Shown here piece by piece: positions 16,452-39,400 of a stretch of DNA of 64,000 bases (positions within the stretch are counted from its first letter, which is position 1; each line of letters opens with the position of its first letter). Position numbers and translations under genes: made by a program. Below the pieces are notes generated by a model. It ran no database searches and was not told the DNA's origin. It saw only the letters and a list, made by a program, of their open reading frames with translations. Origin of the DNA: Turicibacter bilis (GTDB lineage: Bacteria > Bacillota_I > Bacilli_A > MOL361 > Turicibacteraceae); NCBI RefSeq assembly GCF_024499055.1, contig NZ_CP071249.1:2287001-2351000 (forward strand). The letters are read 5' to 3'.

Positions 16452-16925
16452 ATGTCTACCTATAATAAATCAACTCATCAAGAAGAGTTTGGTGAAGAAG
16501 TTGTTAAAGGTACCGAACATGTTGCACATAAAATGGCACATGAAGTCAAAGACATAGCAGAAGATGTTGAACACGGAGCAAAAAAAGTGGCTCATGGTGT
16601 GGAAAATGTAGCTAAAGATGTGGAATATGGTGCGAATAAAGCAGTTCATGCAACAGCACATGGAGTTAAAAACGTTGCAGAAGATATTGCTCATGGTGCT
16701 AAAAAAGTAGTTAATGGTGCAGAAGATGTGGCAGAAGATGTGGCTCATGGTATTGCTAAAGGAATGAAAAATGTTGCTGAGGGCACTGAAAAAGTAATCC
16801 ATGAAACAGCAGAAGGTATTGAACATGTCGGTGAAAAAATTGAACATGGAGCAAAAAAAATTGTTGATAAAGCAAAAGAATTTGTTGATGAAATCCGACA
16901 CCCAAATGATCATCTTGAACAATAG
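16452..16925 (+). CDS. LEA-like protein of 11-residue amphipathic repeats
   Basis: 157 aa, strong AAAGGAGGT ribosome binding site. From about residue 25 the sequence is a run of 11-residue units of the type HGAKKVAHGVE, NVAKDVEYGAN, HGVKNVAEDIA and HGAKKVVNGAE. It is rich in Ala, Lys, Glu, Val and His, with no Trp and almost no aromatic residues, and has no signal peptide. This matches group 3 LEA/apolipoprotein-like proteins, which are disordered in water and helical on drying or on membranes. Its role is probably stress protection; His enrichment suggests metal or acid sensitivity. Both flanks are intergenic and a terminator follows. Confidence 0.75.
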   Translation: MSTYNKSTHQEEFGEEVVKGTEHVAHKMAHEVKDIAEDVEHGAKKVAHGVENVAKDVEYGANKAVHATAHGVKNVAEDIAHGAKKVVNGAEDVAEDVAHGIAKGMKNVAEGTEKVIHETAEGIEHVGEKIEHGAKKIVDKAKEFVDEIRHPNDHLEQ

Positions 16926-17008: not shown

Positions 17009-18651
17009 AAATGAACGTAACTATTCAGCCTAGTAGAAAAGAGTATCACAAAAAGGAGTGCTCATTTAGTGAAGTACTCCTTGTGAATGTTATGAAAATT
17101 GAATCGTATTTCCCATTAAAATGGTTTTAATACTTTCGATAATATTTAATCCTTGCTTTTGACAAGTAGAGATGAAACCTCTGATTCGGGCGAAACAATG
17201 AGCACCTTTTTCTGTTCGGAAACATCCGGATATTTTTTGTTTAGTTTTAGTCATTCGGACATCACGCTCAGCTAAATTATTATCAAACGGAACTTCAACT
17301 TGATACAGAAATTCTAATACTTCTTCTTGTCGTTTCGATAAACGATTGAGTAATCGAACGGAATCCGTATTCTTTTCATGCAGTTTTAAAGGATTCTCAC
17401 GGTAACCCTCTTCGATGATTTGTTGGTATCGTTTCTCAAACTCCTGTATTTTAGATAAGGGTAAAGGATATTCCGTCTCTTCTGAATAAGTTTTAGCTTC
17501 AAGTAATAATTTCGTCATGTTTTTTGCCCACTGTTGGTTCTCAAAATCGATGATTCCTTTAAACTCTCTTAAATGATGAACGTTACATAAAGCATGCGTA
17601 CAATCATCATATTTAAAATACGGGGTCCAATGGTCATGGATGACGGTTCCTTTGAAAGAGGGAAGAATGCCATTGGCTTCAATTGCTTGAGAGCCACGCT
17701 TTTCATGAACAAAGTAATGCGTGAATTTTTGATTTGAAGTCACGTGAAGCCAGTGTCTCTTTCCATTGACATAACAGCCTGTTTCATCTAAATGAAGATG
17801 ATTTGATGCCAAAAGATTTTCTTTGATTGAAGCTTCAGTCGTTTCTAATAACTCATCACATCGTTTCGTCATATTCACCAGTGTTCCTTGGCTGATGGTC
17901 GCTTTGAAAATATCTTGAGTCAATTGTTTCAGACGGTTGAAAGGAATCAATTGATAGTGACTGAAATAAGTTAATACACTTGTTAAATGTGGCCCATATT
18001 GTGTCGGTTGTGTGACATGTTTCGGAAATAGTCCTTCATTTTTAAAGTGACAGTTAGGACAGACTTTAATTTGGGATTGATGCTCAGTCACTTGAAGCCT
18101 TAAGCTCGGTAAATCAAAAACTTGACGTCGAATCGTTTTTTGAGGTTCAACGTTTTCTAAACAACACCCACACCCTTGGCAAGTTTTCGGATGATGTGTG
18201 ACGACAAGATCCGGATCTTTTACCATTTTTAAGGTTGAACCTTGATGCCCGACTTGACCACCCGTTTTTTTATTTGAAGGTTGACGCAAACTTTTTGTCT
18301 TTTTAAAACCATCGGTTGACGGAGGTAAGCTACTATTTTGACTGGTTTGATTTGATTGTTTTTCAAGTTTCTTAAGGCGAGCATCTAAATCTGAAACAGT
18401 CTGAGATAACTCAGAGATTTGAGTGGAAAGTCCTTGAACTAAACTAATAACGGATTGAATCCCCTCCTGATAAACTTTGATGATTTCAGATTCTGACATG
18501 AGATGACACCTTCTTCTAAAGTTGGAATAGTAAGGATATTATAACGTAAATCTTACAAATAGGTAAGTTATTCACGAGAGCTACATATCATTAACAAAAA
18601 CACCAAGAAACGGAATTCGTTTACTTGGTGGCTGAATAGTTACAAATGAAC
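17009..18651. mobile_element. Complete IS66-family insertion sequence with 8-bp target duplication
   Basis: The terminal inverted repeats are GTAACTATTCAGCC at 17017-17030 and its complement at 18630-18643. They are flanked by identical 8-bp direct repeats AAATGAAC at 17009-17016 and 18644-18651, the duplication length known for IS66. The element proper is 17017-18643 and carries only the large transposase, without the tnpA/tnpB helper genes of classical IS66, and lies on the minus strand. Perfect duplications suggest a recent insertion into intergenic DNA. Confidence 0.92.
17090..18499 (-). CDS. IS66-family transposase (TnpC type)
   Basis: 469 aa, full length. It has an N-terminal coiled coil (about 20-55), a Ser/Pro/Lys-rich DNA-binding linker (PPSTDGFKK), and a zinc-finger region with CQGCGCC and CPNCHF. 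The DDE transposase core carries Asp in HLDETG, Asp in VIHDHW and Glu in NNLAERDVR, and the C-terminal IS66_C tail ends near SIKTILMGN. The reading frame is intact. It cuts and pastes the element defined by the surrounding inverted repeats. Confidence 0.95.
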   Translation of the reverse strand: MSESEIIKVYQEGIQSVISLVQGLSTQISELSQTVSDLDARLKKLEKQSNQTSQNSSLPPSTDGFKKTKSLRQPSNKKTGGQVGHQGSTLKMVKDPDLVVTHHPKTCQGCGCCLENVEPQKTIRRQVFDLPSLRLQVTEHQSQIKVCPNCHFKNEGLFPKHVTQPTQYGPHLTSVLTYFSHYQLIPFNRLKQLTQDIFKATISQGTLVNMTKRCDELLETTEASIKENLLASNHLHLDETGCYVNGKRHWLHVTSNQKFTHYFVHEKRGSQAIEANGILPSFKGTVIHDHWTPYFKYDDCTHALCNVHHLREFKGIIDFENQQWAKNMTKLLLEAKTYSEETEYPLPLSKIQEFEKRYQQIIEEGYRENPLKLHEKNTDSVRLLNRLSKRQEEVLEFLYQVEVPFDNNLAERDVRMTKTKQKISGCFRTEKGAHCFARIRGFISTCQKQGLNIIESIKTILMGNTIQFS

Positions 18652-18692: not shown

Positions 18693-18730
18693 AAAATAAA
18701 AACCTGATGAATTCATCAGGTTTTTATTTT
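18693..18730. terminator. Palindromic terminator of the small-peptide transcript
   Basis: A perfect palindrome built on AAAACCTGATGAATTCATCA and its complement, with A/T runs on both sides, immediately follows the minus-strand 38-codon gene. Confidence 0.88.
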
Positions 18731-18731
18731 A

Positions 18732-18848
18732 TTATTTAACAGCAGTCATGTGTGCAATGACTTCGATGACTTGAGGGGTAATGTAGAATAAAGCTGTTCC
18801 AATTACTAATCCTTTTGTTGCATCTTTTAACATTTGAATTTGTTTCAT
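18732..18848 (-). CDS. 38-residue membrane-type peptide, unknown function
   Basis: An ATG at 18848 follows a near-perfect AAAGGAGGAATTTGAA ribosome binding site on the minus strand and runs to TAA at 18732. The product begins MKQIQMLKDATKGL, has a hydrophobic middle (VIGTALFYITPQVIEVIA) and ends HMTAVK. It sits between a long structured leader (18870-19217) and a perfect terminator, so it is very likely expressed. I recognise no family; a small membrane protein or a bacteriocin/toxin-like peptide is possible. Confidence 0.65.
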   Translation of the reverse strand: MKQIQMLKDATKGLVIGTALFYITPQVIEVIAHMTAVK

Positions 18849-18869
18849 TTCAAATTCCTCCTTTGGTGT

Positions 18870-19217
18870 TTATTAAACCCCAAAGGTTTTACAGGCCTTC
18901 TTCCTATAAAACGCATATTGCGTTTAAACAAGAAAAATAAACAGAGCCTAGTGGCCGCGTTTTCTCATTAAGGTGAGAAATTAGCCTTCATATTGGTTTC
19001 TGTGAAGAGTTTTATCTCATCATTTATGTTTGCAATCTGAGCTCTATTTATGAAAAAGCGCTCGTAATTAACTTATATGGTAATTACTTTCTTTTTGTGA
19101 ATGCTTCCGGCGATTATCATTCCCGACGATAATCTTAACAACACATAAAGAACAGTACGTGGAAATTGTTCTTTCCTTCAACCTCGAAACATTCCTTGTC
19201 TTAACGCAAGGGGTTGA
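18870..19217 (-). ncRNA. Candidate structured RNA leading into the 38-residue peptide
   Basis: About 350 bases with no open frame but many local stems. These include CAACC closing on GGTTG around CCTTG/CAAGG (19187-19215), AAAGAACA with TGTTCTTT (19147-19174), GATTATC with GATAATC (19112-19134), TCTCA with TGAGA (18963-18978), and AAACGCAT with GCGTTT (18908-18924). It does not show the conserved cores of tmRNA, RNase P, 6S, T-box, cobalamin, lysine or M-box RNAs that I know. Promoter elements precede it and the peptide gene plus terminator follow. Function unknown. Confidence 0.5.
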
Positions 19218-19223
19218 GTGAAT

Positions 19224-19252
19224 AGAATATCATGTTTTGATAGATTAAACAA
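19224..19252 (-). promoter_or_regulatory. Promoter of the structured RNA/small peptide transcript
   Basis: On the minus strand TTGTTT (19247-19252) and TATTCT (19224-19229) are separated by exactly 17 bases, giving a start near 19217. Confidence 0.55.
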
Positions 19253-19904: not shown

Positions 19905-20000
19905 CGACACGAAAATGAACATTGAGTATTGTATCTCACTTTGAAGTCCATCATAATAGAGTTAATGATAAAAGTCAATCAACAAAGAGGAGTGGGTGAG

Positions 20001-20705
20001 ATGAAGAACTATATTACTTTTAAAGATGTAAAGAAAGTTTATAAGATGGGCGAGGTTGAGATTGAAGCCTTAAGTGGTGTTAATTTTTCAATCGATAAAG
20101 GTGAATTCGTCGTTGTTGCTGGAGCCAGCGGAGCCGGTAAAAGTACGGTACTTAATATTTTAGGTGGAATGGACACTGCAAGTAGTGGGACAATTTCAGT
20201 CGGTGGGAATGAGATAAGTAATTATAATAATAAAGAGTTAATCACTTATCGTCGTCATGATATTGGATTCGTTTTTCAGTTCTATAACTTAGTTCAAAAC
20301 TTAACCGCGATTGAGAATGTCGAGTTAGCAACACAAATTTGTGAAAATCCATTAGATGTGCATGAAGTATTAGAAGCAGTTGGGCTTGGTCATCGTAAAA
20401 ATAATTTCCCCGCACAAATGTCAGGTGGAGAACAACAACGTGTCGCAATTGCACGGGCACTCGCTAAAAATCCAAAATTATTACTGTGTGATGAACCAAC
20501 AGGTGCATTAGACTATAATACCGGGAAAGCAATTTTGAAATTATTACAGGATACATGTCGTAATATGGGGATGACCGTTGTGATGATTACCCATAACTTA
20601 GCCATCGCACCAATGGGAGATAAAGTAATCCATGTTCGAAATGGAAAAGTCTCAAGTATTGAAATCAATGAAAATCCAACTCCAGTCGAAAGGATTGAGT
20701 GGTAA
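20001..20705 (+). CDS. ABC transporter ATPase (MacB/LolD type)
   Basis: 234 aa from the ATG at 20001; GAGGAGTGGGTGAG lies directly upstream, so the longer frame from 19929 is rejected. Walker [14 protein letters not shown]-type signature [15 protein letters not shown] and Walker [13 protein letters not shown] are all intact, as in ATPases that pair with FtsX-like permeases. The stop overlaps the permease start region. It should energise the large coiled-coil permease in a mechanotransmission-type exporter, under TetR control. Confidence 0.93.
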
Positions 20706-20707
20706 TC

Positions 20708-23700
20708 ATGAGTAAGAGTTTAACAAAAGATACCATTCGTGATATTAAGAAATCGATAGGTCGTTTCTTATCTATTCTCATGATTTGTGCCTTAGGGGTT
20801 GCCTTTTTCGTGGGAATTAAATCATCACCGCTATCTATGGAAAAGACGGTTGATCAATATTATGATGACTATAATATGATGGATTTAAGACTTGTTTCAA
20901 CCTTTGGTTTTACACAAGAAGATGTCAATGCCCTTGCCAAGTTAGAAGGAATTGAAGGGATTTTTCCAACTTATTCACAAGATGTATTAACGAACTATCA
21001 TAATCAAGAGTTAGTTTTAAAAGTTCATGCATTGCCAATTGACTTAAGTTTAGATGATCCGAATTATATTAATCAAGTCCGTGTCATTGAAGGGCGACTA
21101 CCTGAGAAATCAGGAGAGGCGGTTGTTGAACGAAATGCCTATTTTGAATCAATCGAGATTGGTTCAACCATTACCCTTGAATCAGGAACAGACACAGCAT
21201 TAAGTGATAACTTGAAAACAACAGAATATACCGTTGTCGGAATTGTTGAGACGCCCTATTATTTATCATTTGATAAAGGAAGTACGACAATCGGAAATGG
21301 TGAGATCTCAAGTTTCATTATGATTCCACAGGAAGATTTTAAATTAGATATTTATACTGAAATCTTTGTCACAGCAAGTGATGTTTTAGCACTTGATACA
21401 TTTAGTAAGAAATATGAGGAGGCGCTGAAACCACTTATTTCTTCTATTGAAACATTAGCAGATACGCAAACTCAAAAACGTTACGATGAAGTTTTTACTG
21501 AGGCTAATGAGGAATTAGATAAAAATCGTCAAGAATATGAAGAGAAAAAATCAGAGGCTTTAGAACAATTACAAAAAGCTGCTAATGAGTTAGAGGAAGC
21601 TAAAACAACGATTGAGTCAGGAAAATCGGAACTTGCTTTAAAGAAAGCAGAATTTGAACAAACCATTGCTGACGCTAAAAAACAAATCGCCAATGGAGAA
21701 GCGCAGTTAATAAAAGGTGAAACTGAATTTAATCAAGCTTATAATGAGTTTTATGCCAATAAGGAGAGTGCTTGGGCAAAAATTGAGGAAGCCAAACAAG
21801 AAATTAGTCAACGTGAAGAACAATTAAATCAATTAAAAACAGCCATTGATCAAATGAAAGCTAGTTTAGAAAGTCCGATGCTCACTGAAGAACAAAAGGC
21901 TGGTATTCAGGCTCAATTAACGCCACTTGAAGAACAGTATCAAAGTGGAATAACTGCGTTAGCAGCTGGAAAAGCAGAACTTGAGCAAAATGAACAAGCT
22001 TTAATTAACGGGGAACAACAGTTGTTGACAACGAAGCAAACACTTGTGGCTTCTCGTCAGGAATTAAATACGCAAAAAGCTAATCTTGAAGATGAAATAG
22101 CTAAAGCGAATCAACAATTTGACAAGGCTGAAGCGGAGCTTACAAAAGGAGAAGCTGACTTAGCTGAAGGTCAGAAACAGTATGAGGAAGCTAAAGCAGA
22201 GGCTGAAGCAGGATTTGCCGAAGCTGAAGAAAAGTTAGCTGATGCCAAGCAACAGATTGAAGATATTGCTCATCCTGAATGGTATGTTTTAGACCGTAAT
22301 AAACATTATTCTTTTGTTGATTATAAAGGAGCAGCTGAAAGTATCCATGCTATTTCTCAAGTGTTTCCAGTTTTCTTCTTTATGGTTGCTGCGCTCGTTT
22401 GTTTAACAACGATGACACGAATGGTTGATGAGCAACGAATGAATATTGGAACGTTAAAAGCATTAGGATATGGTAAGTGGAAAATTGCTTCTAAGTTTTT
22501 AATTTATGCTGGTTTAGCAAGTGTAACCGGAAGTATCATTGGAGCAGTTGTTGGAAACTATGTTTTTCCAACTGTTGTAATTGATGCGTATTCAATGATG
22601 TATGTGTTACCAGAAACGATTATTGTCTTTAGTTGGTCACTTATTTTAACAGCATTGTTAATTGCAGTTGGAGTCACAACCTTATCAGCTTATTTTGCTG
22701 TCAATTCAGAACTTGTTGAAACCCCATCTATCTTAATGAGGCCAAAAGCTCCAAAAGAGGGGAAACGTATTTTACTTGAACGTATTCCATTTATTTGGAA
22801 TCGCCTGAGCTTTATTGGAAAGGTAACGGTTCGAAATATTTTCCGTTATAAAAAACGTTTCTTTATGACAGTGTTTGGAATTGCAGGATGTACAGCTCTA
22901 TTATTAACAGGATTTGGTCTAAAAGACTCGATTCGTACGATTGTGGATAAACAATTTGGAACGTTATTCCTATATGATATGACATTAACGTTTAATCGTG
23001 AAAGTACGGAAGAGGATCAAGCTAATGTAGTAAGCTCTTTAAACAAGGATGAACGCATTGTCGGGTCACTTTTAACAACGAGTGAAAATGGTAAACTATT
23101 GGCCAACGATGAAGAAAAAGATATTACGATTTTTATTCCTGAGAATTTGGATGACTTAAGTCAGTTTATTCATTTCCAAAATCGTAAAACAGCGATGGAT
23201 TTTAGTTTAACTGATGAAGGAGCTATTTTGACAGAAAAGATAGCCAAACAGTTAAATGTTAAAGTTGGCGATCACATTACACTTGAAAATGCTGATGGAA
23301 AAAAAGTCGAGGTTTTAATTTCAGGAATTACTGAGAACTATATTTCTCATTACATTTATTTATCAAAATCATATTATGAGCAATTATTTGATAAACAATT
23401 AAGCTTTAATCAGTTAGTTGCTATTTCTTCTCTAGAGGATGAGGCTATACAATCTGATCTTTCAAGTGAGCTAATGGCTTTAGAGGAAGTCAGCGGTATT
23501 AGTTGGGTTTCAACGTTAAAATCAAGCTTTAATGATATGATTCACAACTTGAACTACGTCATTATCTTATTGATTGTCTCAGCTGGAGCTTTAGCTTTTG
23601 TCGTATTATACAACTTAACGAATGTCAACATTTCTGAGCGTATGCGCGAAATTGCCACAATTAAAGTGTTAGGATTTTATGATAATGAAGTATCTGCTTA

Positions 23701-23950
23701 TATTTATCGTGAGAACATTATTTTAACCTTAATTGGAACGTTCGTTGGGCTTGGATTAGGGGTGTTGCTACATCTATTTGTTATGACAACAGTTGAAATG
23801 GATATGATGATGTTTGGTCGCCAAATTCGTGGATTAAGTTATGTGTATGCAGCGGGATTAACCTTTGTATTTGCTGCACTTGTTAACTTCGCGATGTATT
23901 ATAAATTAAAACGAGTAGAAATGGTTGAGTCCCTAAAATCAGTGGATTAA
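20708..23950 (+). CDS. FtsX-type ABC permease with a long extracellular coiled coil
   Basis: 1080 aa from the ATG at 20708. TM1 is near residues 18-38. An extracytoplasmic MacB-like domain follows, then a highly charged coiled coil (about 255-525; EELDKNRQEYEEKKSEALEQ and many Lys/Glu/Gln heptads). Next come an FtsX block of three TM segments (about 540-680) and a second FtsX block at the C-terminus (about 945-1075). Such proteins export or sense antimicrobial peptides, or release cell-surface lipoproteins and hydrolases. The long coiled coil may span the cell wall. The operon with ATPase and TetR points to inducible export; the substrate is unknown. Confidence 0.88.
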   Translation: MSKSLTKDTIRDIKKSIGRFLSILMICALGVAFFVGIKSSPLSMEKTVDQYYDDYNMMDLRLVSTFGFTQEDVNALAKLEGIEGIFPTYSQDVLTNYHNQELVLKVHALPIDLSLDDPNYINQVRVIEGRLPEKSGEAVVERNAYFESIEIGSTITLESGTDTALSDNLKTTEYTVVGIVETPYYLSFDKGSTTIGNGEISSFIMIPQEDFKLDIYTEIFVTASDVLALDTFSKKYEEALKPLISSIETLADTQTQKRYDEVFTEANEELDKNRQEYEEKKSEALEQLQKAANELEEAKTTIESGKSELALKKAEFEQTIADAKKQIANGEAQLIKGETEFNQAYNEFYANKESAWAKIEEAKQEISQREEQLNQLKTAIDQMKASLESPMLTEEQKAGIQAQLTPLEEQYQSGITALAAGKAELEQNEQALINGEQQLLTTKQTLVASRQELNTQKANLEDEIAKANQQFDKAEAELTKGEADLAEGQKQYEEAKAEAEAGFAEAEEKLADAKQQIEDIAHPEWYVLDRNKHYSFVDYKGAAESIHAISQVFPVFFFMVAALVCLTTMTRMVDEQRMNIGTLKALGYGKWKIASKFLIYAGLASVTGSIIGAVVGNYVFPTVVIDAYSMMYVLPETIIVFSWSLILTALLIAVGVTTLSAYFAVNSELVETPSILMRPKAPKEGKRILLERIPFIWNRLSFIGKVTVRNIFRYKKRFFMTVFGIAGCTALLLTGFGLKDSIRTIVDKQFGTLFLYDMTLTFNRESTEEDQANVVSSLNKDERIVGSLLTTSENGKLLANDEEKDITIFIPENLDDLSQFIHFQNRKTAMDFSLTDEGAILTEKIAKQLNVKVGDHITLENADGKKVEVLISGITENYISHYIYLSKSYYEQLFDKQLSFNQLVAISSLEDEAIQSDLSSELMALEEVSGISWVSTLKSSFNDMIHNLNYVIILLIVSAGALAFVVLYNLTNVNISERMREIATIKVLGFYDNEVSAYIYRENIILTLIGTFVGLGLGVLLHLFVMTTVEMDMMMFGRQIRGLSYVYAAGLTFVFAALVNFAMYYKLKRVEMVESLKSVD

Positions 23951-38896: not shown

Positions 38897-39220
38897 CTTG
38901 TCACCTCATTTCTTTATAGATAAAAATGACTATATCATTTATATCATATCTTAATCAACGACAAAATAAAATCCCTAATAACCTTAATCAAAAGAACCTA
39001 GGGTTTAATATAATATGAGATAGGCTGATTGGGTTAGTAATAAATAATTAATTAAAACTGAAATGTACCGTATAAATTTATTAGGTATTGAATATAGTTT
39101 TAATTGTAGAGTTAGTGAAATATTAGGTTAAATGATTTGAATATACTAAGTTTGTTTGAATTTATTTACAAATAATGGAAAATATTTTAAAATGATTAAT
39201 AACTTAATAAAAAATAATTA
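38897..39220. other. Intergenic region before the lysine riboswitch
   Basis: About 320 bp, A+T-rich, with no gene. AATCCCTA and TAGGGTTT (about 38969-39005) can pair. TTTACA at about 39167 lies upstream of the riboswitch, but a convincing -10 was not identified. Confidence 0.35.
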
Positions 39221-39390
39221 AGGTAGAGGCTGCGGTTCTTAAGAGTATTCATAATGAGGTAAGCGCAATGAAGTATGAAGAAAGGAATAACCGCCGAAGG
39301 CTATAACTGAAGCTTTAAGGTTATAGACCTGGGGGTGTATAGAAGATATGCATCACTGTCACAAATGCAAATTTGTGTTGAGCTACATTT
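39221..39390 (+). promoter_or_regulatory. Lysine (L-box) riboswitch
   Basis: Conserved L-box core elements appear in order: GAGGCTGCG, CTTAAGAGTA, TGAAG, ACCGCCGAAGG, ACTGAAG, then the GGGGGTG and GCATCACTGTCAC peripheral helices ending TTGTGTTGAGCTAC. It is followed by a terminator hairpin and then lysA, so high lysine should end transcription before the operon. Placement in front of a lysine operon supports the call. Confidence 0.9.
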
Positions 39391-39400
39391 AAGAAATAGA

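Follow-up and report, generated by a model that had tools for sequence, protein, structure and literature searches.

OLE RNA, which occurs in Gram-positive extremophiles and anaerobes, is a large, highly conserved structured RNA with a membrane-protein gene directly downstream; its commonest downstream neighbor, oapA, encodes a membrane protein that binds OLE (PMC12265935). ROOL and GOLLD are large, ornate bacterial RNAs of unknown function that are phage- or prophage-borne and often lie near tRNA islands (PMC12286853). RNAIII of Staphylococcus aureus is a structured RNA of ~500 nt that encodes a small helical peptide, delta-hemolysin, in an ORF lying towards its 5' part. Type I toxins are small proteins, typically of <60 residues, that are paired with a translation-blocking RNA (PMC11264685).

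The locus described here lies on the minus strand of a 64,000-nt stretch of the Turicibacter bilis genome (the window). As in OLE/oapA, a large, highly conserved structured RNA is directly followed by a gene for a putative membrane protein. However, the Turicibacter RNA has no Rfam match, is about 360 nt long compared with about 600 nt for OLE, and is found in one genus only, and the peptide is a single helix of 38 residues, unlike the four-helix OapA. The function of the RNA is unknown, as with ROOL and GOLLD, but these are longer, and the Turicibacter RNA is fixed between chromosomal genes, with no phage copies in the collections searched. It resembles RNAIII in that a structured RNA and a small helical peptide would share a transcript, although here the ORF is at the 3' end and Rfam gives no match. 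A small hydrophobic peptide, a structured leader, and a partly hidden Shine–Dalgarno (SD) sequence are also features of type I toxin mRNAs of the Fst/Ldr, TxpA, and TisB types; in contrast to these, no antitoxin RNA was seen in the region, no family matches, and conservation is higher in the leader than in the peptide gene. Finally, a predicted junction closed by a helix, P1, lies 5' of an SD hairpin and has an exclusive alternative pairing, as in translational riboswitches, but there is no known aptamer, only one locus, and the output is an otherwise unknown peptide.

Organization of the Unit

The minus-strand sequence 19252-18693 is a single compact unit of a promoter, a ~360-nt leader, a ribosome binding site hairpin, a 38-codon gene, and a terminator. 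Its main elements are as follows:

19224..19252, minus strand: promoter, read in the sequence, with -35 TTGTTT (19252-19247), a 17-bp spacer, and an extended -10 TGA-TATTCT (TATTCT at 19229-19224)
18860..19216, minus strand: structured RNA or 5' leader, about 360 nt in length and with no usable frame
18857..18862, minus strand: SD sequence AGGAGG, read in the sequence, 8 nt 5' of the ATG, invariant
18732..18848, minus strand: 38-codon gene MKQIQMLKDATKGLVIGTALFYITPQVIEVIAHMTAVK, 38 codons long in all five genomes, 24/38 residues invariant
18693..18730, minus strand: palindromic intrinsic terminator of 17 pairs, a perfect 17-bp palindrome with A/T flanks

The first-pass annotation, made without database searches, had proposed such a compact unit, and this claim held: every element lies where it had been placed, and each of the five genomes available for the genus has the same arrangement. 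The near-ideal ribosome binding site, the 38-codon gene (18848-18732), and the perfect terminator were likewise upheld by the AGGAGG 8 nt before the ATG and the 17-bp palindrome. The "good" promoter with a 17-bp spacer fared less well. The spacer was confirmed, but by consensus the promoter is not good: only 3/6 positions of the -35 element match, and for this reason it is not listed by a consensus promoter scan. Its credibility comes from conservation, since TTG, the 17-bp spacing, the extended TGn, and TATTCT or TATGAT are kept across the five genomes in spite of a divergent spacer sequence. Transcription would start near 19219-19215 and would yield a single transcript of about 530 nt; both statements are inferences from the sequence, and there are no expression data.

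A terminator-like hairpin follows the ORF at the same position in 5/5 genomes, but its sequences are unrelated between subgroups, and two sister genomes carry an unrelated GC-rich terminator in place of the 17-bp palindrome. The palindromic terminator at 18693-18730 is probably bidirectional and able to serve both strands. The unit as a whole folds with z = -5.5 relative to shuffled sequences, none of which folds equally well.

Distribution and Genomic Context

Among the genomes searched, the unit is restricted to the genus Turicibacter: each of the five available genomes carries one copy, at a constant position. BLAST starting from the window genome (2.79 Mb) recovered it in the four other genomes of the genus at 84-90% identity and in none of the three further genomes of the family; other matches were short and mostly AT-rich. 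Two covariance models built on different parts of the RNA, R1 and R2, matched all five Turicibacter genomes with E < 1e-32. Neither gave a convincing match in 390 other genomes of the class, and R2 gave none outside Turicibacter in a sample of the phylum. Weak matches of the RNA models in three genomes outside the genus (G270, G461, and G500) had E-values of 0.003-0.009 per single genome and, with ~390 genomes searched, were treated as chance; the G270 alignment, the only one of the three inspected, lacks hairpin H1. A profile search with the peptide returned the same five genomes plus a weak, partial match in G036 (E 4e-4, residues 13-28), located within a longer frame. The phage, plasmid, and viral collections searched contained no copy of the unit, so that a phage or plasmid origin found no support there.

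The neighbors are also constant. In all five genomes, a convergent gene for an amphipathic protein of 110-157 residues lies on one side, and a divergent ABC exporter (an ATPase and a permease of about 1083 residues) lies on the other; in G002, the contig stops soon after the unit, and an alignment shows no more than the beginning of the exporter gene. This fixed place argues against mobile cargo. A TetR gene separates the unit from the exporter in two of the five genomes only (the window genome, G000, and G004).

Several features of the window itself can be recorded here. The convergent neighbor (16452-16925, plus strand), conserved in all five genomes, encodes 157 residues of an amphipathic protein with repeated VAHG/AEDVEHGAKK-like units and a weak resemblance to apolipoproteins or phasins. 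The divergent exporter (19929-23950, plus strand) combines a MacB/LolD-type ATPase with a 1083-residue FtsX-type permease that carries a coiled-coil insert. Between the unit and its convergent neighbor lies an IS66-type transposase gene (17090-18499, minus strand), which is absent from this position in the other four genomes. An IS66 element was rejected as the owner of the unit, as the transposase gene adjoins it in the window genome alone.

Conservation of the Leader RNA

The leader is a real, conserved structured RNA, as shown by sequence comparison. In a five-genome alignment, 292 of its 368 columns are invariant (79%), and the corresponding figure for RNase P RNA from the same genomes is 301 of 384 (78%). 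Thus, the leader is as strongly conserved as an essential RNA of the same cells. Whichever two genomes are compared, it is better conserved than the ORF, and stems and loops alike are largely invariant over the 360 nt. A protein-coding leader was rejected: length differences are not multiples of three, and neither strand keeps a frame across the genomes. G003 has an antisense frame of 119 codons, which the other genomes lack.

Folding scores are stronger on the transcript strand. The consensus fold (alifold) reached z = -7.3 against column shuffles, compared with -5.5 for the opposite strand, and the single-sequence fold of the leader gave z = -4.3 compared with -2.9, with no shuffle folding equally well. 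Changes on both sides of a pair numbered 5 over the whole structure, versus 2.1 in shuffles, and 3 of 500 shuffles were equally high. Compensatory changes fall in three hairpins, Hc, He, and Hg; in Hc, for example, AUUAUC/GAUAAU is replaced by AUCAUC/GAUGAU. When the pairing was slid by 1-3 columns, the share of paired cells fell from 99% to about 41-51%. With only five sequences and invariant helices, covariation mostly neither confirms nor contradicts the long helices. The first-pass annotation had proposed a covariation check in related genomes and had named a match to a known RNA family or a lack of conservation and transcription as results that would refute it. No known family matched, and the check gave the compensatory changes in three hairpins together with strong conservation; transcription is inferred from sequence alone.

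Predicted Architecture

By model prediction, the RNA is a closed multi-branch fold in which P1 closes a four-way junction with the branches P2, P3, and P4:

19195..19209, minus strand: P1 5' strand (UUGCGUUAAGACAAG), alternatively forming the local hairpin H1 (CCUUG/CAAGG)
19100..19193, minus strand: P2 branch, AAUGUUUC (19193-19186) / GAAGCAUU (19107-19100), enclosing Hb (19173-19148) and Hc (19133-19113)
19052..19096, minus strand: P3 branch, AAAAAG/CUUUUU, enclosing hairpin Hd (GUAAUUA/UAAUUAC, 19087-19064)
18937..19051, minus strand: P4 branch, AUAAAUAGAGC/GCUCUGUUUAU, enclosing He (19022-19003) and Hg (18980-18961), with compensatory changes in both hairpins
18918..18932, minus strand: P1 3' strand (CUUGUUUAAACGCAA), alternatively pairing with downstream GCGUUU and AUAGGAA (hairpin Hf/P5)
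18886..18912, minus strand: P6 hairpin, GUUUUAUAGG/CCUGUAAAAC, 10 pairs, invariant, exclusive with Hf/P5
18860..18886, minus strand: SD hairpin, CCUUUGG...CCAAAGG, which spans the first half of the SD and has an invariant stem and a variable loop

In minimum-energy folding, P1 pairs UUGCGUU-A-AGACAAG near the 5' end with CUUGUUU-A-AACGCAA ~275 nt downstream. The result is a long-range helix of 13 pairs that joins both ends of the leader, with a duplex energy of -19.4 kcal/mol that none of 2000 shuffles matched in stability. P1 is invariant in the five genomes and has no covariation support. All pairs of the P2 branch are kept, with one compensatory change, in Hc; the P3 branch lacks covariation evidence because its pairs are invariant. 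An alternative model in which GGAAA/UUUCC replaces hairpin Hb is less well kept in G004 and was set aside. A weak putative pseudoknot, AACC/GGUU, at the 5' end of the RNA fails in one aligned row. The earlier description of ~350 nt of multi-stem sequence without a frame held as to structure and the missing frame, but the row of separate stems is corrected to a predicted closed fold with an end-to-end helix.

A Predicted Competing Fold and Access to the SD

The strands of P1 may take other partners. In an alternative fold, the 3' strand pairs into Hf/P5 and the 5' strand into H1, which excludes both P1 and P6. The two folds are of similar stability and mutually exclusive, and because the competing fold uses the same strands, the RNA may switch. 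In an energy model without pseudoknots, P1 dominates in the leader alone in 5/5 genomes (P 0.85-0.98), and in the full transcript, the alternative fold dominates in four of the five. Four genomes are predicted to form the SD hairpin in either fold; G002 is the exception, as it loses this hairpin when the leader is folded alone (P = 0.06). Since this hairpin mostly forms in both folds, a link between switching and translation is not shown, and a pure switch is not evident.

The 38-Residue Peptide

The ORF is coding, as shown by sequence comparison; its translation is inferred. Most changes fall on third codon positions, and genome pairs with a usable dS give a dN/dS of about 0.1-0.4, which indicates a translated protein under purifying selection. 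Structure prediction gives one helix over residues 2-36 (pLDDT 90). A hydrophobic stretch at 14-32, with a mean of 1.6-1.9, fits a membrane helix, and the net charge is +1 to +3. It is likely that the peptide is inserted in the membrane, although this location is only predicted. No fitting family was found in Pfam, NCBIfam, or PHROGs.

Comparison with Known Families

The RNA has no Rfam match at the gathering threshold, either in the window or in its homologues, and the view that it belongs to no recognized class was thereby upheld. The search works, since it found a lysine riboswitch at 39216-39393 on the plus strand (114.7 bits), the sole Rfam match in the window. Weaker matches lie mostly in the ORF and terminator region and differ between homologues. 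Among these, ncr1015 (42.6 bits, below the cut-off of 60) rests largely on the terminator hairpin, is not listed for other homologues, and was rejected. A divergent RNase P or 6S RNA was also rejected, as both RNAs are found elsewhere in all five genomes. The OLE covariance model gave no match in the window or the homologues at the gathering threshold or at a relaxed E-value, and the expectation of an oapA-type gene downstream was not met, as the 38-residue single helix has no family match and is alike in position only. None of the Rfam riboswitch aptamer models matched the RNA in the window or homologues. By these tests, the RNA falls outside OLE, ROOL, GOLLD, and the Rfam riboswitch families. 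No description of such a Turicibacter RNA was met in the open-licence literature searched, and this absence is weak evidence.

As a separate observation outside the window, the region G000:C1:982835-984425 holds four tandem 6S RNA matches above the Rfam cut-off within ~1.6 kb. This is an unusually high number of 6S copies; the other genomes of the genus have two each.

Possible Roles of the Unit

The leading reading is that of a genus-specific large RNA that works with a co-transcribed membrane peptide, organized like OLE/oapA. It is the likeliest single reading, although at slightly less than even odds. A single ~530-nt transcript would give two products, the ~360-nt compact RNA, which is inferred to be functional in its own right, and the 38-residue peptide. 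The probably membrane-inserted helical peptide would be a partner or membrane anchor of the RNA, although there are no binding data. The hairpin over half of the SD, together with the competition between P1 and the downstream hairpin, may allow the peptide to be translated in one state of the RNA only. This reading is favored because the RNA shows RNase P-like conservation over its full length, because the single locus always carries the same peptide, and because OLE/OapA sets a precedent; the constant pairing of the RNA with one peptide at one locus is unlike a typical riboswitch. Nevertheless, transcription, translation, membrane location, RNA–peptide binding, and switching are inferred from sequence alone. 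There is no evidence of binding, expression, or membrane location, and covariation is limited to Hc, He, and Hg. The peptide carries few charges that could bind RNA (net +1 to +3), and a cis-regulatory leader would account just as well for the SD hairpin and the pair of exclusive folds.

Such a leader, riboswitch-like or protein-sensing, was weighed closely against the partner reading and falls only slightly behind it, though on balance it is more doubtful than not. The P1-closed junction would be the sensor and the 38-residue peptide the sole output; the 3' strand of P1 would exchange with Hf/P5, which would alter P6 and so the access to the SD. In its favor, P1 and Hf/P5 share a strand and exclude each other, P1 is favored in the leader alone (5/5) and the alternative in the full transcript (4/5), half of the SD lies under an invariant hairpin, and promoter, leader, SD, and ORF are ordered as in a riboswitch unit. 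However, no known riboswitch family matches, the RNA is 360 nt long, there is one locus only with one genus-specific peptide, and the computed ensembles usually form the SD hairpin in both states, so that the switch is not shown to affect the output. An mRNA for a type I toxin-like membrane peptide, with a structured leader that restrains translation and an antisense or trans RNA that silences it, would suit the small hydrophobic helix and the partly hidden SD. It is unlikely: no credible antisense promoter was seen (consensus matches in the region are at the level of shuffles), no toxin family matches, conservation is higher in the leader than in the peptide gene, and the genus carries the locus as a fixed single copy, of which the phage and plasmid collections searched contain no example. 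Least likely of all is a dual-function trans-acting RNA like RNAIII/hld, which would base-pair with other mRNAs and release the peptide as a separate product. The structured RNA and the small peptide, whose coding is supported, do share a putative transcript, and several invariant hairpin loops are possible pairing sites, but the invariant positions include stems as well as loops and are not confined to a short seed region.

The first-pass annotation had suggested three roles. Two of them, a riboswitch-like leader and a large RNA partnered by a small protein, remain possible; the third, a regulated toxin or bacteriocin, is less likely, given that conservation is higher in the RNA than in the peptide and that the locus is fixed across Turicibacter. 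The partner reading can also be put more boldly. It is possible, though unlikely, that the unit represents a new class, a lineage-specific RNA machine with its own membrane peptide encoded at the 3' end, and that the folded RNA captures, or is anchored by, this peptide once it is translated from that very molecule, with the fold switch dividing its role as an RNA from its role as an mRNA.

Conclusions

The unit adds a previously unlisted RNA to Turicibacter, a common genus of gut bacteria, and the function of the RNA–peptide pair is not known. As the RNA shares its position, and apparently its transcript, with one small membrane-type peptide, the relation between the two can be tested directly at one small locus. 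Large conserved RNAs can be limited to a single genus, where broad family libraries miss them. Few bacterial RNAs combine such size with such conservation, and those that do have usually proved to do something unusual.
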